Shown: in pieces, positions 3,981 through 33,098 of the stretch
Layout: every line of letters begins with the position of its first letter
How positions within the stretch are numbered: position 1 is the first letter of the stretch
NCBI GenBank assembly: GCA_016183865.1
Contig: JACPDT010000117.1
Coordinates: forward strand, 1-34,603
From: Armatimonadota bacterium
GTDB lineage: Bacteria; Vulcanimicrobiota; JACPDT01
Direction: 5' to 3'
DNA length: 34,603 nucleotides
Notes under the pieces: generated by a model
The model's database searches: none
Told to the model about the DNA's origin: nothing
What the model saw: the letters and a program-made list of their open reading frames with translations, nothing else
Program-made: the position numbers and the translations under genes

Positions 3981-4020
3981 AGGTTTCTCGGAGCCTCCTT
4001 TTTTGGATGTACTGCTGCTA

Positions 4021-4280
4021 CTATAGTAATCGCCAAAAGTATCGCCATGTATCCGACCGTTGCTACGGGGTCCTGCCGCCTGCGCCAGCCCACGCGGGGC
4101 ACCCGCTTGCGGGTCGGCATAACTCCCATCCCCCAGTCGGGGTACCCGCGCGAAGCGTGGGTCGCAGTTTGCTCCGCGCCTTAGGGCGCCCCGACCCACC
4201 CTTCGGGCGGGTGCCCCGCGGCGTCACCCCTCCGCAACTGGACTTGGCGATGATGGCAAAACTTTCAGGGATGACTATAG
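4021..4280. repeat. MITE-like dispersed repeat, copy 2 (longer form)
   Basis: Ends CTATAGTAATC (4021-4031) and GATGACTATAG (4270-4280) are inverted repeats with one mismatch. The core 4066-4235 matches copy 1 at 1070-1180 but carries about 60 extra bases that form their own palindromes: CGCGGGGCACCCGC near 4093 pairs with GCGGGTGCCCCGCG near 4207, and a smaller hairpin lies around 4140-4165. It occupies most of the 522-bp gap between the divergent amidase and carA genes and would have to be read through if the amidase began at 4199. Confidence 0.6.
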
Positions 4281-8600: not shown

Positions 8601-8821
8601 GCGGAGCCGAGCGAAAGCGCGCCGGTTTTTTGATTCGTCGGGCTGCCATCACTCGCGATATCCCGCTGGTTACCACGATAACGGGCGCCCATGCCGTCAT
8701 TTCCGCCATGGAAGAGCACCGCAGGCGGCCCCTGAAGGTGAGGAGCCTGCAAGAATACCATGGATGCGCCACGGAGACGCAGAAAACACGGAAAGAATGC
8801 AAATTGACGCCGGATAGATGA
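5582..8821 (+). CDS. carB: Carbamoyl-phosphate synthase large subunit
   Basis: Makes carbamoyl phosphate from bicarbonate, ammonia and two ATP. The 1079 aa match the full-length family (about 1070). Two ATP-grasp halves are clear: the first opens with [20 protein letters not shown] and contains [10 protein letters not shown] and [12 protein letters not shown]; the second opens with [18 protein letters not shown] and contains [12 protein letters not shown] and [12 protein letters not shown]. The C-terminal MGS-like allosteric domain runs from about residue 930 ([18 protein letters not shown], then [12 protein letters not shown], then INTPSG). The start is TTG at 5582 with GAGGAGGTGA just upstream, inside the end of carA. 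Its stop overlaps the ATG of the next gene (ATGA), so that gene probably shares the transcript. Confidence 0.96.
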
Positions 8822-11547
8822 TGGAAGAACAGGCTCAGGCGATACCCGAGTTCCCACAGAAGTGCTCCCCCCTCGTAGTGAGCAAGCAGACCCAGGTGGG
8901 GGTTGTTTATTACATTGTCAAGAACCCTGCCTTTGAGCGCATTTTCAAGCTGAGGGAAGTTGAGTTCTTCATTCTCCAGCAGATGAATGGCCGCAACTCC
9001 CTTTCCGAGATACATCAGCGGGTGATTCGTGAGTTCGCGGATATCGAGATGACCCTTGAGGACATCTCCGATTTCACCGACACCCTCAGGGACAAAGGGC
9101 TCCTGGAAGGCCCGGGGCCTGGAGCTTCGGAAGGGCCCCCGTGGTGGAGCAAGGTGCTTTTCTGGCGGAAATCGGTCGTGAACCCGGACAGCCTGCTGGA
9201 CCGAATGGCGCCCTTCTTTGCCCCCACCTTTGAACGGAGGTTTGTCGTATCCGCCCTGGGGGTCATGTTTTTTTCACTTTACCTGTTTTTCAACCACCGC
9301 CAGGAGTACTTTGAGCAAAGCGAATCCATAATCAATGTCTGGGGATTCGTTCTATTCTATGTCCTCCTTGTAGTCACCGGTTTTGTCCACGAGTTCGGGC
9401 ATGCCATCTGTTGCAAGCATTTTGGCGGGAGGGTCACGGAAATCGGTTTTCTGATCATGTATTTTCAGCCCTGTTTCTATGCCAATGTGAATGACGCATG
9501 GCTTTTCCAGGAGAAGTACAAGAAGCTCTGGGTGGGGGTGGCCGGCCTCTATTTTGAGTTCATGTTGGGCGCTGCGGCAATCTTTGTCTGGTTGCTCACT
9601 TTTCCCGGGACTTTCCTGCACCACGTTGCTCACATCGTGATCGGCTGTACCGGCTTGTGGTCCCTCTTCAACCTGAATCCTCTCATCAAGCTGGACGGGT
9701 ATTATCTTCTGAGCGATGCCCTGGAGATTTCCAATCTCAGGGGGAAGTCCTTTGACTACATCCTTTCCCTCTTCAAGAAAAATGTGCTGGGCATTCAAGA
9801 CGAAACGGCTCTGGAAGAGGCGAAGATACGGTTCCGCAGGGAAGGCTCCGTCCTGGAAAGGAAACCGACAGGTTTTGCGACAAGAGCAAGAAGAGGGTAC
9901 ATACCGGTCGTAAGGAAGGAATACATTTCCCCGAGAGAGAAGAGGATTTACCTGTGGTACGGGGTTCTGGCCTTTGCATACACGGCGTTTTTTCTGACCG
10001 CTGCTCTCATCCTGTTCCTGAAGTTCCTTGTACGCCGTTTCCTGGGCCTGGGTTTCATCCTTTTTCTGGCAATTTTTTTCCTGTGGCTGGGCCGCCCGAT
10101 ATCCCAGGCCGTTCCGTATCTTTTCTTCTTGGCGGGAAGGTGGAAGCAATCGAGCATGATCGCTAAGCTGCGCTGGATAGTCGCCGGCATCGTCCTTTTC
10201 ATCATTCTCGGATCCCTCTTCTTGATCTATTTTCCCCTGGTCGTCCATGGAACGTGCAGAGTGGAGCCGTGGAACAAACAGGTTGTTTCCACCAAGGTCG
10301 GAGGCGTACTGGCGGAAGTAAGGGTAAGAGAAGGGGACAAAGTATCGGAGCATTCCGTTATCGGCTCACTGGAGAATGTGGATCTGAGAAACCGTCTCAA
10401 AGAGCTCAAGATCGAGGCACAGACACTAAGGGTCAAAGGGGACATCCTGACGAAGGAAAGCGAGCTGCTGAGGACACGGAAGGCTTCAGCCCTGAAGAAG
10501 GCGGAAGCGGAATACGAGCAGTCGCGCATCGCTCTCAGAGAGCATGCCGCAGTGGGTCCCCACCATGTGGCGGAACAGGAGCAGAAATTGGCTCAGGCCA
10601 CGGAGGTGCGCGCCCGGCTTCAGAGGGATCATGACAACTTGATTGCCGGCCGTCACCCTCCCGCCTTCCAGGCCATCTCGGAGCATATTGAGAAGAACAA
10701 GGTCGAGAGTTGGGCCGCCCTCCAGAAGTACCAGAGAACCAGTAAGCTTATGGAAGCCGGCGCGGTATCCGCCCAGGCTCTGGAGGAGGCTCGCTCGGCC
10801 TACGAGGCTCTGGAGCGTGAGGGGAAGAGCCTGAAAGAGGATTTCCTGGCGAAAAAGAAGGAGTTGGCGGAACATTTGCGGGAAGCCGTTGAGGAGGAGC
10901 GTTACTGGGAAGCGCGATATGCTTCCACCTCAAGGGAGAATCTGAGGAGCAAGCCTGCTGCCCTCCGGCAGGACATTCTGACCCGTGAGGCTCAGTATAC
11001 CCAGGCAAGAAAAGAAGAGGACGAAATCGCCTTGAAGAGCCAGGAGATCCGGCTCAATGAGCTGGCCCTGGAACACGCTACGCATCTCATGGATGCCACA
11101 GAGCAGAAACTGAGGGCCACGTATCTGGTTGCCCCCATCTCCGGCACAGTCATCACTCCCAAGGTTCATGAGAGGGTGGGAAAGTACTTCGGGAAAGGGG
11201 AGGAGATTTTCTGGATCAGCGACTCTTCCAAGGTTCTTATGGAAGTGGATGTCCAGGAGCGGGACCTCGAGGAGGTGGCAGTGGGAAATCAGGTCAGAGT
11301 GAAGGTCGTGGCCCTGCCCGGCGAGCTCTTCTCCGGCAAGGTCCTCCAGATCAGCCCCACCGCGACACAGGAGAAGCTCTTCAGTGTGGTCAGGGTAAAG
11401 ATCCTTGTTGATAACACAAGCGGCCATCTCCTTTTGGGCATGACAGGCACAGCCAAGCTCGACACCCGAAGGAGAAGCCTCGCATACATCCTGGGAAGAA
11501 GAGCCGCCAATTACCTGAGATACAACGTATGGTCGTGGTTCCCGTAG
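8818..11547 (+). CDS. PqqD-like / M50 zinc metallopeptidase / HlyD fusion membrane protein
   Basis: A 909-aa protein with three parts. Residues about 15-100 resemble a PqqD/RRE winged helix with winged-helix-like spacing ([16 protein letters not shown], then [14 protein letters not shown]). Residues about 140-440 form an intramembrane M50 metallopeptidase with HEFGHA (His191, Glu192, His195) and the second-metal motif [14 protein letters not shown] (Asp293), surrounded by several membrane helices. After a helix at about 455-475 comes a HlyD-type adaptor: lipoyl-like half ([20 protein letters not shown]), a coiled coil at about 520-760, the second half ([15 protein letters not shown]) and a beta-barrel tail. 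Related proteins process or export small peptides, often ribosomally made ones, by family knowledge. No radical SAM enzyme or ABC exporter is adjacent. It overlaps carB by 4 bp and ends 2 bp from a convergent gene, so there is no room for a terminator. Function is inferred. Confidence 0.85.
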
Positions 11548-11549
11548 CC

Positions 11550-13820
11550 CTACCCCAGGTCCCCTCGCTTCTGAGGCCAGTGCAGCTCGAGGATCAGGCT
11601 GTCTACAACGCGGCTCAGCGCCGCTACTACGTTTTCATCGAAATGGGTCCCCGCCAGTTTCTCCACCTCCATCAGGGCGACCTGCGGAGGGAGACCTTCC
11701 TTGTAAGGTCTTGCCGATACGAGGGCATCGAAGAAATCGGCCACGGCCAGAATCCTTGCTGTGAGGGGAATCTGTTCACCTGAGAGTCCGTCGGGGTAGC
11801 CGCGGCCGTCCAGCCGCTCGTGGTGATGGCGCACACAGGAATAGACTTCCTCCCAGAGGCTCTTGAATTTCTCGATGGCTTCAGACCCAAGTATCGTATG
11901 GGTCTTGATGATTTCGAACTCTTCGTCAGTGAGGCGTCCTTCCTTGAAGAGGATGCTGTCCTTGATCCCCAGTTTCCCGATATCGTGCAAGGCGGCGCCC
12001 AGGCTCAGAGTCTTCCTCTGGCGGGCCATGAGGTTCATTTCGCCGGCGATGGCCAGGGCTATCCTTGAGACCCTGCGCGTATGGCCGGTGGTGAATGTGT
12101 CTTTGGCTTCCATCGCGGTCATGAGAGCGGTGATAATGCTTTCAAATGCCTCTTCAAGGTGACGACGAAGCCAGACAAGCTCAAGGTTGATGTAGCTCTG
12201 CATGGCCAGCGTGGAAAAGACGGCAAGCTCGGATTCACTTTTTGGGATGAACTGTGTGACCTCAAGGGCTTCTTCGTACTCCGCTCTTGCCTTTTCGTAT
12301 TCTCCTTCCATTACATAGGATGCGCAGAGATTGAAGTGGCCGAACGCGCTCTCAGGGCTGAGCTCCGTTGTTCGCTTGTATTGTTCTATGGCTTCCCGTG
12401 GTCTCCCGAGGCGCGTATAAGCCGCGCCCAATTGATAGTGGGCGAAAGCATCGTTGGGATTGATTCGGATCGCAGCTTCGAAGTGTTTCGCGGCCTTCCA
12501 GACCTCCGAATCCTGATCGGGCTCGGCAAAAAGCATTGCCCCTCCTGATGAAGGGCGCATGGCTCTTCTCCGTTGATCCAGCTTCATGTAGGTAAGGCCC
12601 ATCTGAAAATGAGCCGAGGCGTCATTCGAGTTGATTTCGAGGCATTTGCCGAATGCCCGTTCCGCCAACTGGAGGTCCTCCGTCTCGGTGGAACGGGCGT
12701 AGAGAAGACCGAGATTATAACGGGCATAGAAATCCTTCGGATTGATCTCAAGGGAGGCGGTATATGCCTGAATGGCGTCGGAAACTCTGTCCGCCTGGGC
12801 GCAGGCACGCCCGAGATGGAAGTAAGTATACGGATCCGGCTTGACGGAAAGCGACTTCTCAAAGGATTCGATGGCCTCATTGGTCTTGCCGAGCCGGAGA
12901 TAAGTCATGCCAAGGTTGCACGAGGCCTCGGCAAAACGCGGGTTTATCTTCAATGCATCCTGATAATGTTTGACCGATGCATCGAGATTGAACTGCTGCT
13001 CATAGGCCACGGCAAGAAGGAAATGGTTCTCATCCGGATTGTGCCCGAGTCGGATCGCGTTCTGGTACGACTCGATGGCGAGTCCCCACTGGTTCTGCCG
13101 TGCATAGATCTTTCCCCTGGCACAATGGGCCTTGCCGAATCCCGGGTTTGCGGCGATAGCCCGTTCGTAAGCCCTGAGCGCCTGTATGAGCTTGTCCTGG
13201 TCTTGCTGGATCTGACCGATCCAGTAATGGGCATCCGAGGATTTCGGATCAAGCTCTATGCAGCGCTCCAGGTTCCTTATGGCGGAGTCGGGGTTGCCGC
13301 TGCGCCAATGGGCCAGACCAAGTCTCAAGAGAGCCTGCTTGAGCGACGGATTGAGCCGTATGCACTCCTCATAAATTTTCAGGGCTGAGGAGATGTCCAC
13401 GAGGATCTCCTCAGCAAAGGCCTGGTGAAAGAGGGCGATCGGATCGCCAGGGCGATGGGCCACCTGCTTTTCAAATTCCGCCAGAGCTTCCCTGATTCTT
13501 GCCCGATAGTCGAAGGGAACGTCATCGGTGTATGTGAAGTGTGCGGTTCGGACAGGACCCCGCTCCAATTGAAGGAACTGTTCCCATTCCTTGACTGCGA
13601 CATCCGTTTTCCCCAGTTGCGCATACAGAAGCCCTTTATGAAACAATACCTTGGACAGGCGGCTTTGAAGGCGGGCAGCCTTGTCATAGGCTTCCACGGC
13701 CCTCGAGAAATCTCCGGCCTCATGATAGGTTAATCCCAACTTGAATTGCGCTTCCACATCATTGGGATTGACACTGACCAGGACGGAATATTTCCTCAGG
13801 TATTTTTCCAGATCTTTCAT
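11550..13820 (-). CDS. TPR-array HD-GYP domain protein (probable cyclic-di-GMP phosphodiesterase)
   Basis: 756 aa, soluble. The N-terminal 520 or so residues are tetratricopeptide repeats (for example AHYQLGAAYTRLGRPREAIE, HFNLCASYVMEGEYEKARAE), roughly a dozen. The C-terminal HD-GYP domain starts at about residue 560: GHTRRV, HDIGK (His612, Asp613), HHERLDGRGYPDG (GYP at 674-676) and ILAVADFFDAL, all key metal and signature residues intact, so hydrolysis of cyclic-di-GMP is likely. There is no receiver or sensor domain; the TPRs probably supply the partner interaction. ATG at 13820 with a modest AGGGGT ribosome site. The gene follows a second HD-GYP gene by 53 bp on the same strand. Confidence 0.9.
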   Translation of the reverse strand: MKDLEKYLRKYSVLVSVNPNDVEAQFKLGLTYHEAGDFSRAVEAYDKAARLQSRLSKVLFHKGLLYAQLGKTDVAVKEWEQFLQLERGPVRTAHFTYTDDVPFDYRARIREALAEFEKQVAHRPGDPIALFHQAFAEEILVDISSALKIYEECIRLNPSLKQALLRLGLAHWRSGNPDSAIRNLERCIELDPKSSDAHYWIGQIQQDQDKLIQALRAYERAIAANPGFGKAHCARGKIYARQNQWGLAIESYQNAIRLGHNPDENHFLLAVAYEQQFNLDASVKHYQDALKINPRFAEASCNLGMTYLRLGKTNEAIESFEKSLSVKPDPYTYFHLGRACAQADRVSDAIQAYTASLEINPKDFYARYNLGLLYARSTETEDLQLAERAFGKCLEINSNDASAHFQMGLTYMKLDQRRRAMRPSSGGAMLFAEPDQDSEVWKAAKHFEAAIRINPNDAFAHYQLGAAYTRLGRPREAIEQYKRTTELSPESAFGHFNLCASYVMEGEYEKARAEYEEALEVTQFIPKSESELAVFSTLAMQSYINLELVWLRRHLEEAFESIITALMTAMEAKDTFTTGHTRRVSRIALAIAGEMNLMARQRKTLSLGAALHDIGKLGIKDSILFKEGRLTDEEFEIIKTHTILGSEAIEKFKSLWEEVYSCVRHHHERLDGRGYPDGLSGEQIPLTARILAVADFFDALVSARPYKEGLPPQVALMEVEKLAGTHFDENVVAALSRVVDSLILELHWPQKRGDLG

Positions 13821-13873
13821 CCGATGACCCCTGGGGTAATTTCGGGGCGCTCCGATTCGTTCCTTCCTTTAGT

Positions 13874-15739
13874 TCAGGCAACGAGGAGGCAGCTTATGGG
13901 GACCCGGACCACGCTCCGAGCCTTTTCGAGGCGGCTCTCCCGGGGGTGATTTCCTTCTTTTGCTTCCAGGATCTCTGCGAGAACCTCCACGATTCCGGGG
14001 TCGAATTGGGCGCCGGATCGGTCTCGAATTGCCTCCAGCGCCATCGAGGGGCTGCAGGGGTTGCCGGCTTCCAGTCCGTTCACCAGCCACACAAAGGCGT
14101 CCGCCACGGCAAAAATACGGGCATCCAGCGGTATTCCCTCCCCCTCCTGGTGGAGGGGATACCCCTCCCCATTGTACCATTCGTGATGGCTCCTGATCAC
14201 ACAGGCCGCATCCTCTGCGATGGCTAAGAGTCCTACCGGATTCACGTCTATATGGTCTTTCATCTCCATTCGCACCCATGGATCGCAGAACTGCGAAGGG
14301 GCGATCCAGATTGAGGCAGGGGGGGTGAAGTGATGAGCCAGCGCCGCCTCCCGAAGATTGTCGCAGGTGCCCGGGGGGAGATCCATTCGGGATGCAATCT
14401 CAAGGGACAGGACCAGGATGTGACCGGCTGGAGAGTCCGGCGCCTGTTGGTCTTCCTCCTCCGGTCCGGCACTCAGAAGCTCGTCAGCCGGCAGCTCTTC
14501 CTCCAGATAGGAAATCAACGCAGCCGCCACTTCGGGATCGAATTGGGTCCCGGATGCCTGTGCCAATCGCCTGAGGGCTACCTTTCGATCCATGCCCTTC
14601 CGATAGGGGCGGTCACTGGTCATGGAGTCATAGGCATCGGCAACAGAAATGATTCTGGAACCCAGGGGGATCTGGTTCTCTTTGAGCGCAAAGGGATACC
14701 CTGTGCCGTCGTATTTCTCGTGATGGCAGTATGCAAGCTCCACGGCCACTCGAAAGGGGGGGAGGTTCTCCAGGAAAGTCTTCAAGGCCCCTACATGGGA
14801 ACGAACGAGAAGGCGCTCCTCACCCGAGATCCGGCCATCCTTGAAAAGAATGTCATCAGGAATCACCACATTCCCGATATCGTGAATCAGGGCTGCTCTA
14901 TAGATTTCCCTCGACTCCTGCTCATCAATCCCCATTTTTGTTGCGATTTGCTTCGCATAGATGGCCACCCGTTCCGAGTGCCCGAAAGTAATGGAATCAC
15001 GGGCTTCCAGAATCTTCAGGACAGCCTCCATCACGGCGGAGATTTCCTTGAAAACCTGGGCATGGGCCCAGTTGGATTTAAGAAGAACCAGGACAGGGAC
15101 TGCGAGCAGAAGAATCGCTCCAGGGGACCGCAAGAGGAAAGTGGTGATGGCCCCGAAAGATACCAGGATGAGATCCTCGGCATAACCGAAGGCGCAGGGG
15201 AACAACCGCGCCGCATCCCTGATTCGGATTCCGAAATCCAGGGAGCTTATCAGGATGCCGGTGGAGAGGGCGACCGTGCTCACTGTAGCACCGCAGAGGA
15301 CAAAGGCGATGAGGTTTTCCACTCCACCAGGTTGTGATGATGAATGGAAGAAAGTGTAAACCGCCGCCCCAGCGGAGAATTTCAACACATAATTGGATAC
15401 ATTGAAAAGTCCCACCCACCATCGGCTCCAATGGATGTAGCCACGACCAAGGAATATCAGGTTATGACACAAGGCAATCGTGAAAGCTCCCCAGGCGGCC
15501 CAGGAGAAAGGGAACAGGAAGATAGTGACATAAAGAAGGATATCGAATACATTAATCACAAGGTTCTTGGTGAAGACCAGCTCCATCGGTCGGAGCCCTG
15601 CGGTGATTCCGGCAGCCACCAGCAGGGTGAAAAAAGCGGTCTCCGTTGGATTTTGAAAAGACAGTGGGTGAAGGTAAAGCACCAGGGCCGTGCAGAGCCC
15701 CAGGCCGATCGGAAACAGTCTTTTCAGGATGTAATACAT
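13874..15739 (-). CDS. Membrane tandem HD-GYP protein with degenerate second domain
   Basis: 621 aa. Residues 1-220 hold about six to seven hydrophobic segments in a MASE-like sensor arrangement. HD-GYP 1 (about 235-415) has GHSERV, HDIGN (His286, Asp287; Lys of the usual HDIGK is Asn), HHEKYDGTGYP (GYP 347-349) and ISVADAYDSMTSDRPYR. HD-GYP 2 (about 435-590) keeps SHHEWYNGEGYP (518-528) and FAVADAF but has AHHF where HDIGK should be, so the HD pair is lost and it lacks the N-terminal GHS/T helix. The first domain is probably active on cyclic-di-GMP and the second regulatory. The ATG at 15739 fits the start of the first membrane helix. Confidence 0.88.
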   Translation of the reverse strand: MYYILKRLFPIGLGLCTALVLYLHPLSFQNPTETAFFTLLVAAGITAGLRPMELVFTKNLVINVFDILLYVTIFLFPFSWAAWGAFTIALCHNLIFLGRGYIHWSRWWVGLFNVSNYVLKFSAGAAVYTFFHSSSQPGGVENLIAFVLCGATVSTVALSTGILISSLDFGIRIRDAARLFPCAFGYAEDLILVSFGAITTFLLRSPGAILLLAVPVLVLLKSNWAHAQVFKEISAVMEAVLKILEARDSITFGHSERVAIYAKQIATKMGIDEQESREIYRAALIHDIGNVVIPDDILFKDGRISGEERLLVRSHVGALKTFLENLPPFRVAVELAYCHHEKYDGTGYPFALKENQIPLGSRIISVADAYDSMTSDRPYRKGMDRKVALRRLAQASGTQFDPEVAAALISYLEEELPADELLSAGPEEEDQQAPDSPAGHILVLSLEIASRMDLPPGTCDNLREAALAHHFTPPASIWIAPSQFCDPWVRMEMKDHIDVNPVGLLAIAEDAACVIRSHHEWYNGEGYPLHQEGEGIPLDARIFAVADAFVWLVNGLEAGNPCSPSMALEAIRDRSGAQFDPGIVEVLAEILEAKEGNHPRESRLEKARSVVRVPISCLLVA

Positions 15740-17694: not shown

Positions 17695-19206
17695 TTACTG
17701 TCTCGCATTCACGATAGCCATGGCCGACACTGCGGCAAGGCTCGCTGCCAGGCGGATTTCCGATTCCTCGAAATATCGGATTTCCCGGGAGCTCAATGAT
17801 ATGGCGCCGATGATCTTTGTCCCTTTCAGAAGCGGAAGAATCAGCAATGCCTTATAGTGGGCGCCTTGAGGCAGATCCGATATCTGCACTCTCGAATCCA
17901 GCGAGATATCAGGGATCGCCAGGGGTCCGCGGCCAAGAACCGCTTCCGACAGCGCGCCTTTTCCAAAAGGAATCGTAAGCGCCTGGACTTGCTCTTTGAA
18001 CACGCTTGTGGAGATCATTCCGACAAAGACCTCCTCCTGTGGGTCGAAAAGAAAGAGAGTGCAGTCCTCCACATTCAGTGTCCGCGCCATCAGACTCACC
18101 ACCAGAGCCAGGATCTCGTCCAGATTTTGTGCCGACATGAGAGCTGTTGAAGAGGAGTACAATATGGATAACTCCTCATATTTGCGCTCCCTTTCCGCGT
18201 GAATCTGAGCCTTGCTGATCGCTGCGGAAGCATGTTGAGACAGGGTCTCAAGGAGCTCGATATCTCTTTCAGTGAACACGCGGGGGAGAATGGTCCCGCA
18301 GGTCAGGACCCCCAGAATCTCCTCGCCTTCTTTCAGCGGAACGCAGGCCAGGGAAGTTATCCTCTCTTTCCCGTCATAATAGGCAAACCTTGGGTCCTGG
18401 GCGAGATCGGGGATAATCTGGCTCTTGCCTTCTTTTGCGACCCATCCTATGATCCCTTCTCCCAACTGCAAGGGGGGCTGTGTTCCGGAGTCGAGGCGTA
18501 TTTTTCCTGCGGAAGCCCTGACGATGAGGGCCTTATCTGCCTGATTCAGGAGTCTCACAGTTGTGATGTCCGCCCGGAGAAGGCGATTGCCCCATTCCGC
18601 GAGAGAAAAGAGCATGTCGTCCAGCACCAGAGAAGAGTTGAGAGTGTGTCCCAACCCGGCCAGGACTTCCAGCTCCTCCGTTTTGCGGGAGATCGCTTCT
18701 CCCAGAAAACCGAGCAAAGAAGCCATCAGAAACAAGAGAAGAAACCTGAAAAGAAGAAGGACCGGATCTGGGAGCGGCGGACCCTGTGGAAGAAAAGAGG
18801 TCCCCAGAAACAGGAGAGCGCCTGATGTTGCCGTCAGGAGGGCGCCCCGGACACCGTACCAAACGGCGCCAACCGCGGTGGGGATGAGAAGCAGGTAAAA
18901 GGTCTCTCTCTGGTCGCGAAAAAAATAGATAAGGGCGCAAAAGTAAACAACATCCACCAGGAGCATCAGCTCCCGGGAGGCAAGAAGACCTCCCGTCCGC
19001 AGCGTTCCCCGCAGAAGATTGAATATGAGCACAAGTGAGGTCAGGAGAAGGATGGATATTCGTGGAAGGGAGGCGCCGTGAAAGGCGGCCCAGAGGAGAA
19101 TCAGAAGAAGAACGATTCCCCTGATCCCGCGCTCCACTGCGAGCTCCTGGGGCGTGAGTCCCTTCCACAGAGGGGTTGGAATGACGCTATTCACGGATGT
19201 CTGCAA
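17695..19206 (-). CDS. Membrane GAF-GAF sensor protein without output domain
   Basis: 503 aa. About six hydrophobic segments between residues 28 and 175 (for example GIVLLLILLWAAF, FRFLLLFLMASLLGFLG) are followed by two GAF domains, about 205-345 (LGEGIIGWVAKEGKSQIIPD, then ACVPLKEGEEILGVL) and about 355-500 (CTLFLFDPQEEVF, then LLILPLLKGTKIIGAISL). No kinase, GGDEF or HD domain follows, so it must pass its signal through a partner. The likely start is TTG at 19206, one base after the stop of the HDOD gene; GTG four codons later is an alternative, and neither has a clear ribosome site. Translational coupling to the HDOD gene is expected. GAF ligands are not predictable here. Confidence 0.85.
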   Translation of the reverse strand: MQTSVNSVIPTPLWKGLTPQELAVERGIRGIVLLLILLWAAFHGASLPRISILLLTSLVLIFNLLRGTLRTGGLLASRELMLLVDVVYFCALIYFFRDQRETFYLLLIPTAVGAVWYGVRGALLTATSGALLFLGTSFLPQGPPLPDPVLLLFRFLLLFLMASLLGFLGEAISRKTEELEVLAGLGHTLNSSLVLDDMLFSLAEWGNRLLRADITTVRLLNQADKALIVRASAGKIRLDSGTQPPLQLGEGIIGWVAKEGKSQIIPDLAQDPRFAYYDGKERITSLACVPLKEGEEILGVLTCGTILPRVFTERDIELLETLSQHASAAISKAQIHAERERKYEELSILYSSSTALMSAQNLDEILALVVSLMARTLNVEDCTLFLFDPQEEVFVGMISTSVFKEQVQALTIPFGKGALSEAVLGRGPLAIPDISLDSRVQISDLPQGAHYKALLILPLLKGTKIIGAISLSSREIRYFEESEIRLAASLAAVSAMAIVNARQ

Positions 19207-19207
19207 G

Positions 19208-20068
19208 TCACGAAATGCCCAGCAGGTTCTTTACTTCTTCGGCGCCTTTCTTGATCTCCGATATGAGCGGCTCGATTCCGGAAACCGAGATGCCGAGGAT
19301 TTCCAGGGCTTCATTCAGGTGGGGTGAGACCACGTAGTCTCCGGCCCAACCGATTCTCCCCTGCTTACAGAGGTTGTTGGCCGCGTAGACATAAGGACTC
19401 AGGTCCTCCCGGCCGCGGCTGAAAGGATCACGATGGTGCAGTTTGATGGCATTCTGCACGATCGCAGGAAATCTCCACTTTCTGGCGGCGAGCTCGCCGA
19501 TCTCCCCGTGATGAGTTCCCAGGACCTTCATTTCAGCCTCAAAGATGGAGATATTTTCCTTCCGGGTTCGCTCCAGGACCAGGGAAAGCTCCATGGGCGC
19601 CAACTGCGCCAGAATCAATTTGCCCATGTCGTGAAGAAGGCCGATGATAAAAGCTTCCTCCGTTCTCGGGACCTTTGTTTCCCTGGCTATCAGACTAGAG
19701 CCTATGGCGGTACCTATGGAGTGAAGCCAGAATTGCTGCCGGTCCAGAAGGTCTTTTTTCCCTTCCTGGCTGAGGAGACTTAGTGCCGACACGCCCAGCA
19801 CCACGCTTCGGAGCAGGTTGAACCCCAGGATGGCCACAGCATGGGTGATGGAACAGATGGGATTCGGAAACCCAAAATAGGGGGAGTTGGCTATTTTCAG
19901 TATCCTTGCCGACAAAGCCTCGTCTTTCGAGATCAGCTCCGCTATGTCCGATGCGGAGGACTTGGTGTCTTCCAGCAATTGTGTAATTTTCAGGACCGCG
20001 TTTGGAAGGGGCGGGAGGTCTCTGATCTTATAAAACAGCGTCGTCTTCAAGATTCCGTGCATCTCCAT
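19208..20068 (-). CDS. HDOD domain signalling protein
   Basis: 286 aa, almost entirely one HDOD domain: LPPLPNAVLKITQLLEDTKS at the N terminus, ILKIANSPYFGFPNPICSIT, AVAILGFNLLRSVVL, then GLLHDMGKLIL and GTHHGEIGELAARKW. HDOD proteins are HD-related regulators of c-di-GMP, chemotaxis or stress circuits in many bacteria and often lack hydrolase activity. Here the HD pair is present (HDMGK). The pairing with the GAF-GAF protein one base downstream suggests a sensor and effector pair (inference). The start is ATG at 20068, or ATG two codons later; GGAAGAAC upstream is a possible ribosome site. Confidence 0.9.
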   Translation of the reverse strand: MEMHGILKTTLFYKIRDLPPLPNAVLKITQLLEDTKSSASDIAELISKDEALSARILKIANSPYFGFPNPICSITHAVAILGFNLLRSVVLGVSALSLLSQEGKKDLLDRQQFWLHSIGTAIGSSLIARETKVPRTEEAFIIGLLHDMGKLILAQLAPMELSLVLERTRKENISIFEAEMKVLGTHHGEIGELAARKWRFPAIVQNAIKLHHRDPFSRGREDLSPYVYAANNLCKQGRIGWAGDYVVSPHLNEALEILGISVSGIEPLISEIKKGAEEVKNLLGIS

Positions 20069-23400: not shown

Positions 23401-24495
23401 GTGAGCCGAGCCGAGGTGGTATCAGAAAACCAGGGATCCCAGGACAGAGAGCGGAACAGGCAGTTTCTGGCTGTCCTTGAGCGGCTGAAACAGGGGGGGA
23501 TGCTTGCCCCTCAGATTTTTGTCGAAGGTGAGGAGGGACTTCATCCCGCAGCCGCGCCGGAGCTTCTCCTCCTAGCCTGTGAACGCCCCGATGTCTCCGG
23601 CGATGCCCTTCCCATTCACCTTTCCTCCGTGTCGGATCTGAGCCTGCTGAAGGCAAGGGATTACATGCGTGAAACCGGCGGCCCCGGAACTTTTTCCGAT
23701 GAGGATTGTTTCAAAGCTCTGGAAAATCTGAAAGCCGTTGCCTGGGGCGGGGATGGATGGCTTCCGACTCTTGGGGGATTGCTTCTTTTTGGGAAAAGCC
23801 CCCAGCAGTATGTGCCTTCCGCCCGGGTTTCCGTAACCCGGTACAAGGGTGGTCATATCGGAAGACCCGTTGCGGACAAGTGGCTTGTTCAAGGGACCCT
23901 TTTCGAGATCATTGAAGAGGTCGCATATCTGGTCTCCCAGATCAAGGGGTATCCCCTGGGCTCGTTACGAAGTTTTGTGGCGGCAATAGTAGGATACAGG
24001 AACTACCTCCTTGCCGCCGATTTCGTCAGGGTCAGGATTTTCGATGATCGCGTGGAGTGGGAGTGCCCAGGGACGCTCTTCGCCCTTGAGGAGGAATGGT
24101 GGGACTGGATGGCCGGGCAGTGTCACGTTGTGTTGAGTGCGATGGCCGGCAGGTCTCTTGTGGAGAAGTCGCCTGCCTTTTCAAGAGATCGCGTTGTCCA
24201 GCGTCTCCCCGGGTGTCGGTGGTGGGCCGATGAGGGAAGGCTTTGCCAGATCCTGCAGGATCCGAACAGGGAGAACAAACCGGAACAGGCTTCCGAAGAG
24301 ATGCAAAGCCTGAACTACCGACAGGTTCAGGCTCTGGAGACCTGGAGGGAGAAGAAATACGTGACCAGCAAGGAATACGCCGAATTCAACGCCGTTTCCA
24401 TAGATACGGCGTCTCGGGATCTGCAGGATCTGGAGAGCAAGGGATTTCTGCGCAGTGTCGGAAAGCGCAAAGGGAAAGGATATTTTTACCTTTGA
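23401..24495 (+). CDS. Divergent HATPase (RecG-like/Schlafen-associated) regulator with C-terminal wHTH
   Basis: 364 aa from GTG at 23401 with AAGGAGGGG upstream. The middle matches the divergent-ATPase family usually annotated 'ATP-binding protein' or 'RecG-like': TLGGLLLFGKSPQQYVPSAR, then VSVTRYKG, and VRIFDDRVEWECPG. The last 60 residues are a winged helix (YVTSKEYAEFNAVSIDTASR, DLESKGFLRSV). Two oddities: no AlbA_2/Schlafen domain is evident at the N terminus, and the usual REALVNAIVHRDY is RSFVAAIVGYRNY, losing the metal-ligand Asn and the His. ATP binding is therefore doubtful. Its stop overlaps the mlaE start (TGATG), so it is probably co-transcribed with mla and may regulate it (inference). 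Confidence 0.75.
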   Translation: MSRAEVVSENQGSQDRERNRQFLAVLERLKQGGMLAPQIFVEGEEGLHPAAAPELLLLACERPDVSGDALPIHLSSVSDLSLLKARDYMRETGGPGTFSDEDCFKALENLKAVAWGGDGWLPTLGGLLLFGKSPQQYVPSARVSVTRYKGGHIGRPVADKWLVQGTLFEIIEEVAYLVSQIKGYPLGSLRSFVAAIVGYRNYLLAADFVRVRIFDDRVEWECPGTLFALEEEWWDWMAGQCHVVLSAMAGRSLVEKSPAFSRDRVVQRLPGCRWWADEGRLCQILQDPNRENKPEQASEEMQSLNYRQVQALETWREKKYVTSKEYAEFNAVSIDTASRDLQDLESKGFLRSVGKRKGKGYFYL

Positions 24496-25271
24496 TGGAG
24501 CAGGTCCTTTCACACCTTGGTCATCGCACCATCGCGTTCCTGGAGCATGTCGGCAGAATGATTCGTCTGACCAGGGATACTTGTTATTATCTGGGCAAAG
24601 GCGCCGTCAACTATCGTCTTACCGTGGATCAGATGGCTCAGTTGGGTGTGAACTCCCTTTTCATCGTCTTCATCACGGTGGCCTTTGCCGGAATGGTGCT
24701 TTCCCTCGAGTTGGCGCACATCGCGATTCGATACGGGGTCGGAAAAATGGTCGGAGGGGGGGTAGCCATAGCCATGGCCAGGGAGTTTGCTCCCATGTTG
24801 CCCGCTATTGTAGTGGCGGGAAGGGTGGGCTCCGCGATTACCGCCGAGATCGGCTCCATGAAGGTGACCGAGCAGATTGACGCCCTGGAGGCCCTCGCGA
24901 CCAGCCCTGTTCGGTATCTTGTGGTGCCCAGGTTCTTAGCCTGCGCCGTCATGATTCCCATCCTTACCCTTTTCGCCAATTTCTCGGGGAACTGGGGGGG
25001 GTATTTGATCGCGACGTCCTATGCCCAGATCACACCTTCGGCCTATATGGATTCGATCCACAGGATGGCAGTCATGGAAGATCTGACGGCAGGGCTGATA
25101 AAGGCCCTTGTCTTCGCGATCCTGATTTCCCTTGTAAGCTGCCACCAGGGGATGATCACTGAGGGCGGCGCGGCCGGTGTAGGCAAATCCACGACTACGT
25201 CTGTCGTGGTTTCCATTATTCTAATTTTCGCTACGAACTATTTCTTATCTTATTTTTTGTTCAAATCGTGA
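24495..25271 (+). CDS. mlaE: MlaE-type phospholipid ABC transporter permease
   Basis: 258 aa from ATG at 24495, overlapping the preceding stop; longer in-frame upstream starts read through that gene. Hydrophobic segments and signature stretches fit MlaE: FAGMVLSLELAHIAIRYG, REFAPMLPAIVVAGRVGSAI, AEIGSMKVTEQIDALEAL, then PRFLACAVMIPIL and VGKSTTTSVVVSIILI. In the Mla/MCE systems this is the inner-membrane permease, paired with MlaF and MlaD, that moves phospholipids between inner and outer membranes. No mlaB or mlaC is adjacent. The intermembrane step may instead be carried by the long MlaD encoded two genes downstream. Confidence 0.95.
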   Translation: MEQVLSHLGHRTIAFLEHVGRMIRLTRDTCYYLGKGAVNYRLTVDQMAQLGVNSLFIVFITVAFAGMVLSLELAHIAIRYGVGKMVGGGVAIAMAREFAPMLPAIVVAGRVGSAITAEIGSMKVTEQIDALEALATSPVRYLVVPRFLACAVMIPILTLFANFSGNWGGYLIATSYAQITPSAYMDSIHRMAVMEDLTAGLIKALVFAILISLVSCHQGMITEGGAAGVGKSTTTSVVVSIILIFATNYFLSYFLFKS

Positions 25272-25293: not shown

Positions 25294-26037
25294 GTGATTC
25301 GGTTTGAAAGCATCTCAGTGACTCTCGGAGGGCGGGAGATTCTGCGGGACATTGACCTGGAGATCCAGCGAGGTGAAACCGTGGCGGTTATCGGACTCTC
25401 AGGGGCGGGGAAGAGCACCTTGCTGAAACTGGTGGTGGGCCTGCTCAGACCCACGAAAGGGAAGGTTTGGGTCAATGGCACGGAAATGTCGGGACTCTCG
25501 GGGAAAGCCCTGTACGATGTTCGAAAGAAGATCGGACTGGTCTTTCAGGAAGGCGCTTTGTTCGATTCTCTCACAGTCGGGGAGAATGTCGCCTTCGGAT
25601 TGCGCCAGCACTTCAAGCTGGCTGAATCGGAGATCTGGAAGAGAGTGGAGGAAACCCTGGAGGTGGTCGGCCTGGCAGGAACGGAGGCTCTTTTTCCCAG
25701 CCAGTTGTCAGGGGGCATGAGAAAGAGGATTTCTCTGGCCCGAGCCCTTGCATACAGGCCCGAGATCCTCCTTTTCGATGAGCCCACGACCGGGCTGGAT
25801 CCTATTATGACGAATATCATCAATTCACTGATTCTTCAGTTGAAGAGGGATATTGTCGCAACTTCGATCATTGTCACCCATGACATGCATTCCGCCTTCG
25901 CGGTTTCAGATCGGGTGGCCATGCTTTTCGACAAGCGGTTCATGGCGGTCGGGACTCCCGCCGATGTACAGCAGTCCGTAAATCCCTATGTGAGACAGTT
26001 CATTGAGGGAAGCGCCGAAGGGCCCATACAAGTGTGA
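25294..26037 (+). CDS. mlaF: MlaF-type phospholipid ABC transporter ATPase
   Basis: 247 aa from GTG at 25294, 22 bp after mlaE. Walker A GLSGAGKST, Q-loop followed by the Mla-typical EGALFDSLTVGENVAF, signature QLSGGMRKRISLARAL, Walker B ILLFDEPTTGLDP and switch VTHDMHSAF. It ends with about 25 residues past the fold, where E. coli MlaF has its MlaB-contacting tail; no MlaB partner is encoded here. It powers the MlaE permease on the cytoplasmic face. Confidence 0.95.
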   Translation: MIRFESISVTLGGREILRDIDLEIQRGETVAVIGLSGAGKSTLLKLVVGLLRPTKGKVWVNGTEMSGLSGKALYDVRKKIGLVFQEGALFDSLTVGENVAFGLRQHFKLAESEIWKRVEETLEVVGLAGTEALFPSQLSGGMRKRISLARALAYRPEILLFDEPTTGLDPIMTNIINSLILQLKRDIVATSIIVTHDMHSAFAVSDRVAMLFDKRFMAVGTPADVQQSVNPYVRQFIEGSAEGPIQV

Positions 26038-26061: not shown

Positions 26062-27645
26062 ATGGGTTTGAGTTCTGAAGCAAAAGTGGGATTGATCACC
26101 CTTTTGGCATTGATTTTCCTGGGCTGGATTATTCTTGAATGGGGCCATATCAAGAAAGAGAACAATGTTTACTATCTGAAAATTCTTTATCCTGATGTAG
26201 CCGGATTGGAACCGGGCGCCCCTGTAAGACTGGGCGGCGTGACCGTCGGAAAAGTCAGTGCCATCGAGCCTCCCATGGACGGCAAAGTCGTGGTCACGCT
26301 CGCCATCAGGAGGGGAATCGTGATCAAGGATGATGCAACTTTCGCCATAGGAACGACCTTAATGGGGGATCGGTGGGTGGAGATATCCATCAACAAGCAC
26401 CAGGGTAAGCCGCTGGAGGAGTGGGCCACAGCGGAAGGAAAGACGCCGATCACCTGGGATACCCTCCTGACGGACGCGGAGAAGACATTGAAGGAATTTC
26501 ACCAGACCCTTGCCGACATGAATGCGACAGTTACCAACAAGAAGACCCTTCAGGCCCTTCATGATTCGATCATAAACTTCAATGAAAGCATGAAAAATGT
26601 AAAAGATGCCTCTGTGGTCATCAAGAAGGAAGTAGCCCATAATTTCCCGAGCATCCTGCGCAAGGTAAACGTCCTTGTAGCCGACTTACACCATGATCTC
26701 TCCCGCATTGGAGAGCAGGTTTACGGCTTCAGCTCGACTTTGAATCGAATGGGCGTGGAAAATGAGAAAGATGTGCGGGCTGTGGTGCGCAATCTGAAGG
26801 AAAGCTCCCTTGTTCTGCGAAGCGCCCTCGAGAGCATCAGGGACCTGGTTGGGGACAAGGAGATCCACAGTGATGTGAAGGAGACCATAAAGAATGTCCG
26901 AAGAAGCAGCGAAAAATTGGAGAGCATTGCCAAGCAGGTCAATGACTTCGTATCGGACGAGGATCTGAAGGAAGATATTCGTGGGACGATTCGAAATGCA
27001 AGGCTCCTCACAGGTGCGGCCAATGAGCTCCTTGGAGTCAGCGAACCTCCAACCGATGCAGGGCAAAAGTCGGAGAAGCCGGCGCCACAGAAACAGGGTG
27101 AAGCGCCAACCCAGCCTCCGTCCCCCGGCCCCCCACCTACCCTCCCCCCAGAGGGGGGAGGCAGGAGGGAGGAGAAGGTGGTTCCGAAAGCACCCGAAAA
27201 GCCTCAGGCGCAATCCAAGGAAAGTGCTGCCCAGAAACGACGCATGGGGAAGCTGACAGCCTGGGATGCCCAGTTCGAATGGAACAAGGACCGCGCCGGT
27301 GTGCTCTCTTCATTCAATTTCTACGTCTTGCCCTATCGCCCCAGATCGTATGTCATGGGGCTTCGAGACATAGGGGGAGAAAACACTCTGAATCTTCAAG
27401 TGAGGAGTCGCTGGAGCGACAATATGTTCTCCCGCGTGGGCATTCTGGAATCCCAGTTCGGGGTGGGTCTTGACTACAGTTTCAGCGATCTCATCGGAAC
27501 CAGCATGGATCTGTATGATACCCATCACTTGAAGGGCAATGTCCACGCATATATCAAGGCCTATCGCGAATGGGAGATCAAGCTGGGCCTCCGGGACGTC
27601 TTCCAGGAAAGACGTCCGGTCATCGGCGTCAGGAGAAGGTTTTAG
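26062..27645 (+). CDS. mlaD: MlaD-like MCE protein with C-terminal beta-strand-rich (barrel-like) domain
   Basis: 527 aa from ATG at 26062 with GGAGGG upstream. One N-terminal membrane helix (VGLITLLALIFLGWIILEWG, residues 9-28), then a single MCE domain at about 35-112 (YPDVAGLEPGAPVRLGGVTV, GTTLMGDRWVEI). Residues about 115-335 are long amphipathic helix. A Pro-rich linker (about 340-390) is encoded partly by a REP-like palindrome. The last 130 residues (398-527) alternate short amphipathic strands and end in RRRF, the terminal Phe typical of outer-membrane barrels. E. coli MlaD is about 180 aa without this domain. An MlaD-barrel fusion spanning the envelope has been described in diderm Firmicutes (Veillonella); a similar one-protein bridge is my inference here. 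Confidence 0.9.
   Translation: MGLSSEAKVGLITLLALIFLGWIILEWGHIKKENNVYYLKILYPDVAGLEPGAPVRLGGVTVGKVSAIEPPMDGKVVVTLAIRRGIVIKDDATFAIGTTLMGDRWVEISINKHQGKPLEEWATAEGKTPITWDTLLTDAEKTLKEFHQTLADMNATVTNKKTLQALHDSIINFNESMKNVKDASVVIKKEVAHNFPSILRKVNVLVADLHHDLSRIGEQVYGFSSTLNRMGVENEKDVRAVVRNLKESSLVLRSALESIRDLVGDKEIHSDVKETIKNVRRSSEKLESIAKQVNDFVSDEDLKEDIRGTIRNARLLTGAANELLGVSEPPTDAGQKSEKPAPQKQGEAPTQPPSPGPPPTLPPEGGGRREEKVVPKAPEKPQAQSKESAAQKRRMGKLTAWDAQFEWNKDRAGVLSSFNFYVLPYRPRSYVMGLRDIGGENTLNLQVRSRWSDNMFSRVGILESQFGVGLDYSFSDLIGTSMDLYDTHHLKGNVHAYIKAYREWEIKLGLRDVFQERRPVIGVRRRF
27142..27160. repeat. REP-like palindrome inside mlaD
   Basis: CTCCCCCC-AGA-GGGGGGAG, an 8-bp stem with the same AGA loop as the tandem array at 15770-15907; the flanking TACCCTCC and GGAGGGAGGAG also match that array's style. 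It is read in frame within the linker of MlaD (PPPTLPPEGGGRREEK), so an intergenic-type element appears to have been accommodated in coding sequence. Confidence 0.65.
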
Positions 27646-27655
27646 AGGTGTTTCA

Positions 27656-28900
27656 GTGTCTGGAAGCTTGATCCACAGTCCTCTACCCTCCGGAACCGTC
27701 CTGGACAAGAGGTATCGCATCAAGGAGTTGATCAAGGCAGGGGGCTATGGCGCCACCTACAAGGCCGAAGACACTTGTGTGGACGGGAAAACCGTTGCCC
27801 TCAAGGAGATGCTGGATACCTTTCAAGACGCAGACGAGCGTCAAGTTGGAATTCGAAACTTCCTGGCGGAGATTCAAATTCTTCAAAGGCTAGCTCATCC
27901 GAATATCCCTCGGATTTCAGACCAGTTCATGGCTGGAGCTTCATTTTTCTTCGTCATGGATTATATCGAGGGCACAGATCTGTCCACTCTCTTGCGCGAA
28001 AACAATGGCGAGGGCTTCGAAGAGCAGGATGTGCTCGAATGGGGAGCGCAGGTGTGCGATGCCTTGGCCTATGTGCACAAACTAAAGCCGAAACCGGTCA
28101 TTCACAGGGACATCAAGCCATCCAATTTGATTCGTCGGGACAGAGACATGCGTATCATGGTTGTGGACTTCGGCATCGCCGGGGTCTATAATCCAAATAA
28201 GGACCGGTGGGTGGGAACACCCGGGTATGCACCTCCGGAGCAGCAATGGAACCAGGATTCAGTGGATGGGCGGGCGGATATTTATGCCCTGGGCGCTTCT
28301 CTGCATCACCTTTTGTCCGGCCAAAGGCCCGAGTCTCCTGAGAACGCCCATTTTACCGATTTACCTTTCTCCCAATGGTTCTCCAACCACCAGGAGCCCT
28401 TCACTCATATGAAGCCCCTGAATCAGTTGCGGCCGGACTTGAGCGAAGAGTGCTGTCGTCTTGTCGCCAAAGCTCTCTTTTGGAACCCTGACGACAGGTA
28501 CGGAAGCGCCACAGAAATGCTGGAGGCCCTGCGAGCCCTGGTCCCTGGCTGTGGGCAACCGGAACCCGATGTTCAACACGATTTCAGACTTCGTGTGAGG
28601 GAGGCCCAGGCAAAATGGATAGAACCCGCTCTGCGAGAGATTGCCCGGCGTTTTCCGGGCCGGTGCCTCACCCCTTCCATACCCTCCGAATATGATTATT
28701 TTGTCTTTTCCCTTGCTTCTTTCACTCCCCTTGAGCTCCATATCAAAGTCAACCCCGACGCTCTTGCCATCGAGTTTTACAGGAAACAGGGGTTGCTGCA
28801 GAAGGATCTCCTCGGTACGGCAGATCTGCGGGGCGCAACGGCAGGGACTGAAATTGCAGGGATTATACGGGAATTCATAGAAGATTTTGAATCATTCTAG
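27656..28900 (+). CDS. Eukaryotic-type Ser/Thr protein kinase
   Basis: 414 aa from GTG at 27656, with GAGGTG five bases upstream and 10 bp after mlaD; an ATG 39 codons earlier lies inside mlaD and is rejected. Kinase motifs are complete: IKAGGYGATYKAED (P-loop), VALKEM (Lys50), Glu72, HRDIKPSN (Asp152), DFGIAG (Asp171), GTPGYAPPEQ and the DIYALGASLHHLL helix. The kinase ends at about residue 295. A C-terminal segment of about 115 residues has no membrane helix or PASTA repeat and is not recognised. The position in a lipid-transport and surface-sugar series suggests envelope control by phosphorylation (inference). Confidence 0.93.
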   Translation: MSGSLIHSPLPSGTVLDKRYRIKELIKAGGYGATYKAEDTCVDGKTVALKEMLDTFQDADERQVGIRNFLAEIQILQRLAHPNIPRISDQFMAGASFFFVMDYIEGTDLSTLLRENNGEGFEEQDVLEWGAQVCDALAYVHKLKPKPVIHRDIKPSNLIRRDRDMRIMVVDFGIAGVYNPNKDRWVGTPGYAPPEQQWNQDSVDGRADIYALGASLHHLLSGQRPESPENAHFTDLPFSQWFSNHQEPFTHMKPLNQLRPDLSEECCRLVAKALFWNPDDRYGSATEMLEALRALVPGCGQPEPDVQHDFRLRVREAQAKWIEPALREIARRFPGRCLTPSIPSEYDYFVFSLASFTPLELHIKVNPDALAIEFYRKQGLLQKDLLGTADLRGATAGTEIAGIIREFIEDFESF

Positions 28901-31630: not shown

Positions 31631-32644
31631 TTACAAAATTTCTTCCAGGGCCTTTATCCTTTTTTCCAGATCGGGAATCCTGGATATATAGGCGAGGTCT
31701 TTCAGTGCCTCCCTGTGCGGTTTTGCCGGAAAGCCTGAAACAATCGCACCTGCCGGTACATCTTTTATCACGCCGCTTCGTCCTGCAAGCACCGCATCAT
31801 GACCTATGATTACGTGTTTTCCGATAGGTGATGCCGCGCCGGACTGCGCAGCCACCGTGACCCTGTCGCCCATCGTCGTGCTTCCTGCTATTCCCGACTG
31901 AGAAACGATTACACAGTCGTCGCCGATTCTCACGTTATGTGCTATCATTACAAGATTATCAATCTTGGTTCGGTTTCCTATCTTCGTGCTTCCCACAGTC
32001 GCCCTGTCAATGCAGGTGTTCGCGCCTATCTCCACATCATCCCCAATCGCCACGTTCCCGATTTGAGGAATTTTTGCGTGCCTGCTCCCGTCTTTCTCGA
32101 AGCCGAAACCGTCCGCTCCTATGACGACACCGCTGTGGATAACGGCTCTCCGGCCGATTCTGCTGTCATCCATGATCGTCACATTGGGATAAATAGTGCT
32201 CTCTGCACCGATTTCAACATTGTTTCCCACATAAACAAGAGGCATTATCCTGGCCCTGTCGCCGATTCTTACGCCCTCTCCCAGCACGGCAGATGCCCCG
32301 ATGGATACATCCTTACCCAGCGTTGCATTCTCCCCAATAACGGCGGAGGGGTGTATGCCCGGCCCGGTTTCTCCTGTGGGGGAAAAAAGCCTGAGGAGTT
32401 TCGCGAAGGCCCGTCTGGGGTCTTTGACCCTCACAAGCGCCTTCCTGGAATTCCTCGTCTCCATGGAGACCACTATTGCGGAAGCTCTGCCGGCTTCCGC
32501 GAGGGGGAGCTTCTTCTCGTCCTCGGCCCAGACAAGGGCGCCAGGGAAAGCATCTTCGATACTCGAAAGACCAGTAACCGTAAGGTCCTCGCCTTCGAGC
32601 CGCCCTTCCAGCATGTCAGCCAGTTCGCTCAAGGTTTTCCGCAT
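31631..32644 (-). CDS. lpxD: UDP-3-O-acylglucosamine N-acyltransferase
   Basis: 337 aa from ATG at 32644 with GGAGG five bases upstream; the longer ORF from 32809 has no family support. N-terminal uridine-binding domain (TLSELADMLEGRLEG, GLSSIEDAFPGALVWAEDE) and a left-handed beta-helix of hexapeptide repeats (IGENATLGKDVSIGASAVLG, IGADGFGFEKDG, IDRATVGSTKIGNRTKIDN), with the catalytic His in LVMIAHNVRIGDD. It adds the N-linked acyl chain in lipid A synthesis, direct evidence for LPS. No lpxA/fabZ/bamA neighbours, so it stands outside the usual lpx cluster. Confidence 0.96.
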   Translation of the reverse strand: MRKTLSELADMLEGRLEGEDLTVTGLSSIEDAFPGALVWAEDEKKLPLAEAGRASAIVVSMETRNSRKALVRVKDPRRAFAKLLRLFSPTGETGPGIHPSAVIGENATLGKDVSIGASAVLGEGVRIGDRARIMPLVYVGNNVEIGAESTIYPNVTIMDDSRIGRRAVIHSGVVIGADGFGFEKDGSRHAKIPQIGNVAIGDDVEIGANTCIDRATVGSTKIGNRTKIDNLVMIAHNVRIGDDCVIVSQSGIAGSTTMGDRVTVAAQSGAASPIGKHVIIGHDAVLAGRSGVIKDVPAGAIVSGFPAKPHREALKDLAYISRIPDLEKRIKALEEIL

Positions 32645-32767
32645 AGAGCCTCCATAAAGTGATCCCCGACCCCCCTCTACGGTTACGACGTTACTTATTA
32701 GTCGCGTCCATTCGTGTTCTCCCGCAACTTCAGTTCTCCTGCATAATTCGTGCGACAAGGAGGAAAA

Positions 32768-32806
32768 ATGGGTTCCAAAAAGGAATATGGTGACCACAGT
32801 GAGTGA
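32768..32806 (+). other. Possible 12-codon leader ORF before atpZ
   Basis: AAGGAGGAAAAATG is the best ribosome site in this gap, but its ATG (32768) opens only 12 codons (MGSKKEYGDHSE) ending at TGA 32804-32806, overlapping the atpZ start codons in another frame. Either translational coupling delivers ribosomes to atpZ, or a one-base indel hides the true N terminus of AtpZ. Confidence 0.35.
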
Positions 32807-33098
32807 CAATGATCAGGACAGGCAGTCGGACGATAAGCTCAAAGAGCTTGAGAAGCGGCTGGAGCGGTTCCGGAAGACGGATGACAAAGAGGATCTCCGT
32901 CAGTTGTTCAGAAGCCTCGGGTTGGTGACATCCCTCGGTGCGACAATTGTGATCTCGATGGTTCTCGCCTATTTTCTCGGCGCCTTTCTGGATCAGAAGT
33001 TCCGGACCCACCCGTGGATGAGTGTCATATGTCTTTTTGGAGGAGTGGCGTTCGGGGGATACACGGCTTACAAGCTCCTGGGACCCTATTTGAAGTGA
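32787..33098 (+). CDS. atpZ: F0F1-ATPase accessory protein (AtpZ/gene1 family)
   Basis: 103 aa from ATG at 32787; GTG at 32799 is an alternative. A charged N-terminal helix (DDKLKELEKRLERFRK) precedes two membrane helices (SLGATIVISMVLAYFLGAFLD and MSVICLFGGVAFGGYTAYKL), the pattern of the small AtpZ proteins that start atp operons and are linked to cation handling and F0 assembly. Its own ribosome site is poor; see the leader ORF. It heads the F0 gene series. Confidence 0.85.
   Translation: MVTTVSDNDQDRQSDDKLKELEKRLERFRKTDDKEDLRQLFRSLGLVTSLGATIVISMVLAYFLGAFLDQKFRTHPWMSVICLFGGVAFGGYTAYKLLGPYLK

Follow-up and report, generated by a model that had tools for sequence, protein, structure and literature searches.

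A predicted barrel-bearing MlaD of the Veillonella type, encoded beside MlaE and MlaF in a bacterium of the Vulcanimicrobiota

In Veillonella parvula, MlaD consists of a transmembrane domain, one MCE domain, a helical region of about 150 residues and a C-terminal barrel of ten antiparallel strands, and the organism has neither MlaA nor MlaC (Grasekamp et al. 2023, PMC10665443). The isolated V. parvula barrel fractionates with the outer membrane; barrel-bearing MlaD proteins (103 sequences) are widely distributed in diderm Terrabacteria, in which MlaDE is vertically inherited (PMC10665443). The subject of this work is an mlaEFD gene run in a 34,603-nucleotide stretch of DNA, hereafter the window (contig JACPDT010000117.1 of assembly GCA_016183865.1), from a bacterium placed in the Vulcanimicrobiota (JACPDT01). 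The analysis indicated that the product of its mlaD gene is very probably a Veillonella-type transenvelope MlaD which, with MlaE and MlaF, would make up a minimal MCE lipid transporter.

The run lies on the forward strand, as do all of the MlaD segments given below. The mlaE gene (24495..25271, with its ATG at 24495 and its stop at 25271) encodes a 258-aa MCE ABC transporter permease that matched the Pfam model MlaE (PF02405) with 251 bits. It is followed by mlaF, encoding the transporter ATPase (25294..26037; ABC_tran, 126 bits), and finally by mlaD (26062..27645), which starts with ATG, ends in ...RRRF-stop and encodes a long, barrel-bearing protein of 527 aa. The intergenic gaps are 22 and 24 bases. 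Thus mlaE and mlaF adjoin mlaD, as in an MlaEFD transporter and as in V. parvula, where the three genes also stand together. The whole genome, a 4.4-Mb draft in 353 contigs that is 96% complete, gave one MCE match, namely mlaD, and one MlaE match, namely mlaE.

The domain anatomy of MlaD was read from a full-length AlphaFold2 model together with sequence matches. An N-terminal helix, presumably the inner-membrane anchor, occupies residues 5-28 (26074..26145) and is kept in relatives. The single MCE domain (residues 37-108, 26170..26385) matched PF02470 with 48 bits against a curated cut-off of 25.1, which places the protein in the MCE/MlaD family; solved MlaD and Mce1 chains align by sequence to the same residues, and the predicted local distance difference test (pLDDT) score exceeds 90 in most blocks of this domain. 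About 190 residues of helix follow (residues 132-324, 26455..27033; low to medium confidence), long enough for a Veillonella-type transenvelope MlaD, and presumably form the wall of a periplasmic tunnel. A Pro-rich, disordered linker (residues 325-397, 27034..27252) was delimited from the model and the alignment, with very low pLDDT at residues 330-349 and 362-398. It carries a Pro-rich insertion between helices and barrel that is found in none of 15 aligned relatives; some more distant relatives carry Pro-rich stretches of their own. The protein ends with the predicted barrel domain (residues 398-527, 27253..27642), whose last residue is Phe. A first-pass annotation of the sequence had described a single N-terminal helix and a single MCE domain, followed by some 220 residues of helix, a Pro-rich linker and about 130 residues of strands ending in Phe. 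This succession of parts held throughout, although the helical region proved to be shorter than had been estimated. Compared with V. parvula MlaD (419 aa), the protein is thus longer, with about 190 rather than about 150 helical residues and with an additional Pro-rich linker.

The C-terminal 148 residues were also modelled alone with AlphaFold2, from an alignment of 33 sequences. The result showed a short low-confidence helix followed by ten antiparallel strands, with a mean pLDDT of 88.7, a barrel core at about 95 and a predicted template modelling (TM) score of 0.76. The same ten strands recur in the full-length model over residues 400-526. Loci retrieved by genome search did not enter the structure modelling. 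The barrel of about eight strands that had been expected at first is therefore ruled out by both models, which give the number published for V. parvula (PMC10665443), and a globular or disordered C-terminus is ruled out by the confident barrel. In a Foldseek search of the Protein Data Bank (PDB), the top match was the designed 10-stranded transmembrane barrel TMB10 (E value 3.5e-4, probability 1.00, TM score about 0.6), followed closely by the KdgM porin, OmpA and further outer-membrane barrels. The alternation of hydrophobicity along the strands is roughly double the mean of shuffled controls, both in the window sequence by itself and in the family (p about 0.0002 to 0.0004), and on ten of ten strands the outward-facing residues exceed the inward-facing ones in hydrophobicity; because the strands were taken from the AlphaFold2 model, this test supports membrane insertion without proving it. 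Many outer-membrane barrels end in Phe, as this domain does. Taken together, these predictions describe the ten-stranded amphipathic barrel of a Veillonella-type MlaD.

A contig search with MlaD as the query yielded no confirmed relative, and the MlaD family alignment gave no usable pattern. For this reason MlaE served as the bait, with MlaD being read from the flanks, which gave 80 named loci; V. parvula itself is not among them, and other Veillonellaceae are included. A profile built solely from the C-terminal domains of the window's own phylum matched the MlaD C-termini of the Negativicutes Sporomusa ovata (1.4e-27), Propionispora (1.9e-24), Mitsuokella (2.2e-20) and Acidaminococcus (1.9e-18), as well as those of an Armatimonadota metagenome-assembled genome (MAG; 1.1e-19) and of candidate division WS1 (3.9e-17). 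With this profile no barrel was found in the MlaD proteins of Omnitrophota, Acidobacteriota and NC10. In the reverse direction, a Negativicutes-only profile matched the window domain with 55.8 bits (E value 2.5e-16), and 200 shuffles of the domain reached at most 7.3 bits. Among 37 other genomes of the phylum, 33 contain an MlaD match; the C-terminal domain is conserved in these relatives, and the final Phe is kept in most of those read. This conservation and the distance between the shuffles and the true score show that the domain is not a chance feature. Profile comparison in both directions shows homology between the domain and the MlaD barrel of Negativicutes. The Veillonella-like design suggested at first is accordingly right as to anatomy; it is not confined to Veillonella, being widespread in diderm Terrabacteria (PMC10665443). 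In the MlaE tree, Armatimonadota and WS1 are the neighbours of the window's phylum (support 93/85), and the enclosing set also includes Negativicutes and Cyanobacteria.

Several observations were made along the way on the distribution of MlaD. In one family of the phylum (f6), all three genomes (G005, G009 and G013), two of them at 97-98% completeness, are without an MlaD match, and MlaD has possibly been lost across this family. In six relatives, a second, more distant MlaD-like match occurs beside the close one (G002, contig C351; G028, C346; G012, C34; G019, C258; G034, C285; G036, C359), and that of G036 has two internal TGA codons. Among the bait loci, a MAG titled 'Acholeplasmataceae' (L041, JAAYVM010000216.1) has a barrel-bearing mlaD next to mlaE; in the MlaE tree it falls with Acidaminococcaceae, so that it is probably mislabelled.

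The partners of the shuttle-dependent Mla system were searched for with family models. The results showed no match to the MlaA, MlaC and LolA models in the whole draft genome, and no match to MlaA or MlaC in any of the 37 searched relatives, while the controls for all three models responded as expected, the MlaA and MlaC models matching Escherichia coli and Caulobacter. MlaA and MlaC are thus missing, as they are from the Veillonella-type system, and an MlaA/MlaC set hidden elsewhere in the genome is ruled out as far as the draft allows. An E. coli-type Mla system, with MlaA and MlaC present and a short MlaD, does not fit this genome. For an mlaB-like partner of mlaEFD, no STAS_2 match was found on the window contig, though STAS_2 proteins occur elsewhere in the genome. 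The first-pass annotation had stated that mlaA, mlaB and mlaC are not nearby and that the lineage has lpxD; both statements were borne out, the former now genome-wide for mlaA and mlaC. LpxD is encoded in the window at 31634-32809, and TamB and a BamA-like Omp85 protein are encoded close together on another contig. These are three proteins that a diderm with lipid A would be expected to possess. The genome thus resembles V. parvula in being without MlaA, MlaC or Lol and in having TamB.

Set against other MCE systems, the window locus shares MlaE, MlaF and the MCE domain of MlaD with E. coli MlaABCDEF. However, E. coli MlaD is short (183 aa), has neither long helices nor a barrel, and requires the MlaC shuttle, the MlaA lipoprotein and MlaB. 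PqiB and the mycobacterial Mce1A-F proteins resemble the window MlaD in having an MCE ring followed by a periplasm-spanning helical tunnel. Mce1 differs in being a heterohexamer in which each subunit gives one strand to a small barrel, and neither PqiB nor Mce1 has a full barrel per subunit.

By analogy with V. parvula and with solved MCE proteins, six MlaD copies would form a hexamer attached to the MlaE2F2 inner-membrane ATPase by their N-terminal helices and MCE ring, and the long helices would come together as a hydrophobic tunnel spanning the periplasm. Each ten-stranded barrel may then be inserted into the outer membrane by BamA and anchor the mouth of the tunnel. Phospholipids, the presumed cargo, would pass between the outer and inner membranes without MlaA or MlaC, probably returning toward the inner membrane without a shuttle. 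The envelope-spanning MCE transporter originally proposed is therefore supported by the predicted barrel, the homology to Negativicutes and the lack of MlaA and MlaC, with the outer-membrane location and lipid transport being presumed.

Some points weigh against a transenvelope transporter of this kind. The evidence on this organism comes from sequence and models, and the draft state of the genome (353 contigs, 96% complete) makes the absence of MlaA and MlaC strong, not absolute, although it is strengthened by the 37 relatives, which lack both as well. According to Grasekamp et al. (PMC10665443), a phospholipid is too wide for the barrel, and AlphaFold makes a hexameric ring of barrels look unlikely. 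The low-confidence linker speaks against a rigid tunnel that continues as far as the barrel, and gives a weak hint that the barrels may tether rather than conduct. It is quite possible, at somewhat less than an even chance, that the barrel is an outer-membrane tether only, holding the tip of the MlaD tunnel at the membrane while lipids enter through another partner or directly from the inner leaflet. The narrowness of a ten-stranded barrel (PMC10665443) is in keeping with this, and a Pro-rich stretch of up to about 70 residues suggests flexible tethering over a continuous pipe; however, the insertion is missing in the 15 aligned relatives, so that such flexibility is not general. A tether would in any case be a version of the transenvelope MlaD and not a different assignment, and the confidence given to the two overlaps. 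The C-terminal domains of this lineage might, instead of acting as six separate narrow barrels, open and fuse to form one wide pore or a few, making MlaD a single-protein bridge with a true lipid-conducting outer-membrane channel, which we regard as very unlikely.

Two further explanations were considered. MlaD could work with distant, diverged replacements of MlaA and MlaC, the barrel being an accessory. Very diverged proteins could escape Pfam searches, and in the published survey the majority of long MlaD proteins have no barrel, so that it is dispensable in other lineages (PMC10665443); yet the silence of the MlaA and MlaC models in this genome and its relatives, set against their response to the controls, makes replacements improbable. 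The C-terminal domain could instead be a soluble periplasmic beta-barrel or beta-sandwich, since its localisation in this organism rests on prediction and a few soluble beta proteins appear at lower rank among the PDB matches. The transmembrane barrels at the top of that ranking, the outward hydrophobicity of every strand and the terminal Phe all speak for a membrane protein. In addition, the homologous Veillonella barrel was found in the outer membrane (PMC10665443), and a soluble domain is very unlikely.

Downstream of mlaD lies a Ser/Thr protein kinase gene (27539-28900, forward strand; Pkinase, 143 bits), unlike in V. parvula, a member of a different phylum, where tolC and tamB follow mlaD. 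The longest open reading frame of the kinase begins about 107 bases before mlaD ends, and its true start is therefore probably further downstream. Elsewhere in the window, a 969-aa protein (1290-4199, reverse strand) combines a sporulation-type Germane domain, two AMIN domains and an N-acetylmuramoyl-L-alanine amidase domain, and a 909-aa protein (8818-11547, forward strand) combines a PqqD-like domain, an M50 peptidase-like membrane domain and an HlyD-type membrane-fusion domain. Two neighbouring HD_5-domain proteins (11550-15739, reverse strand), one with many TPR repeats, lie near GAF and HDOD proteins (17695-20068), forming a signalling gene cluster.

The window MlaD is an ordinary and well-supported further example of the system published in 2023. 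The question whether lipids travel through or beside the narrow ten-stranded barrel is the same for it as for Veillonella. The finding lends independent support to the published view that diderm Terrabacteria ancestrally had a three-gene Mla system with a barrel-bearing MlaD, because in the phylum studied here, whose MlaE groups with Armatimonadota and WS1, the domain is conserved throughout, the searched members are all without MlaA and MlaC, and the barrel shows detectable homology to its Negativicutes counterpart.
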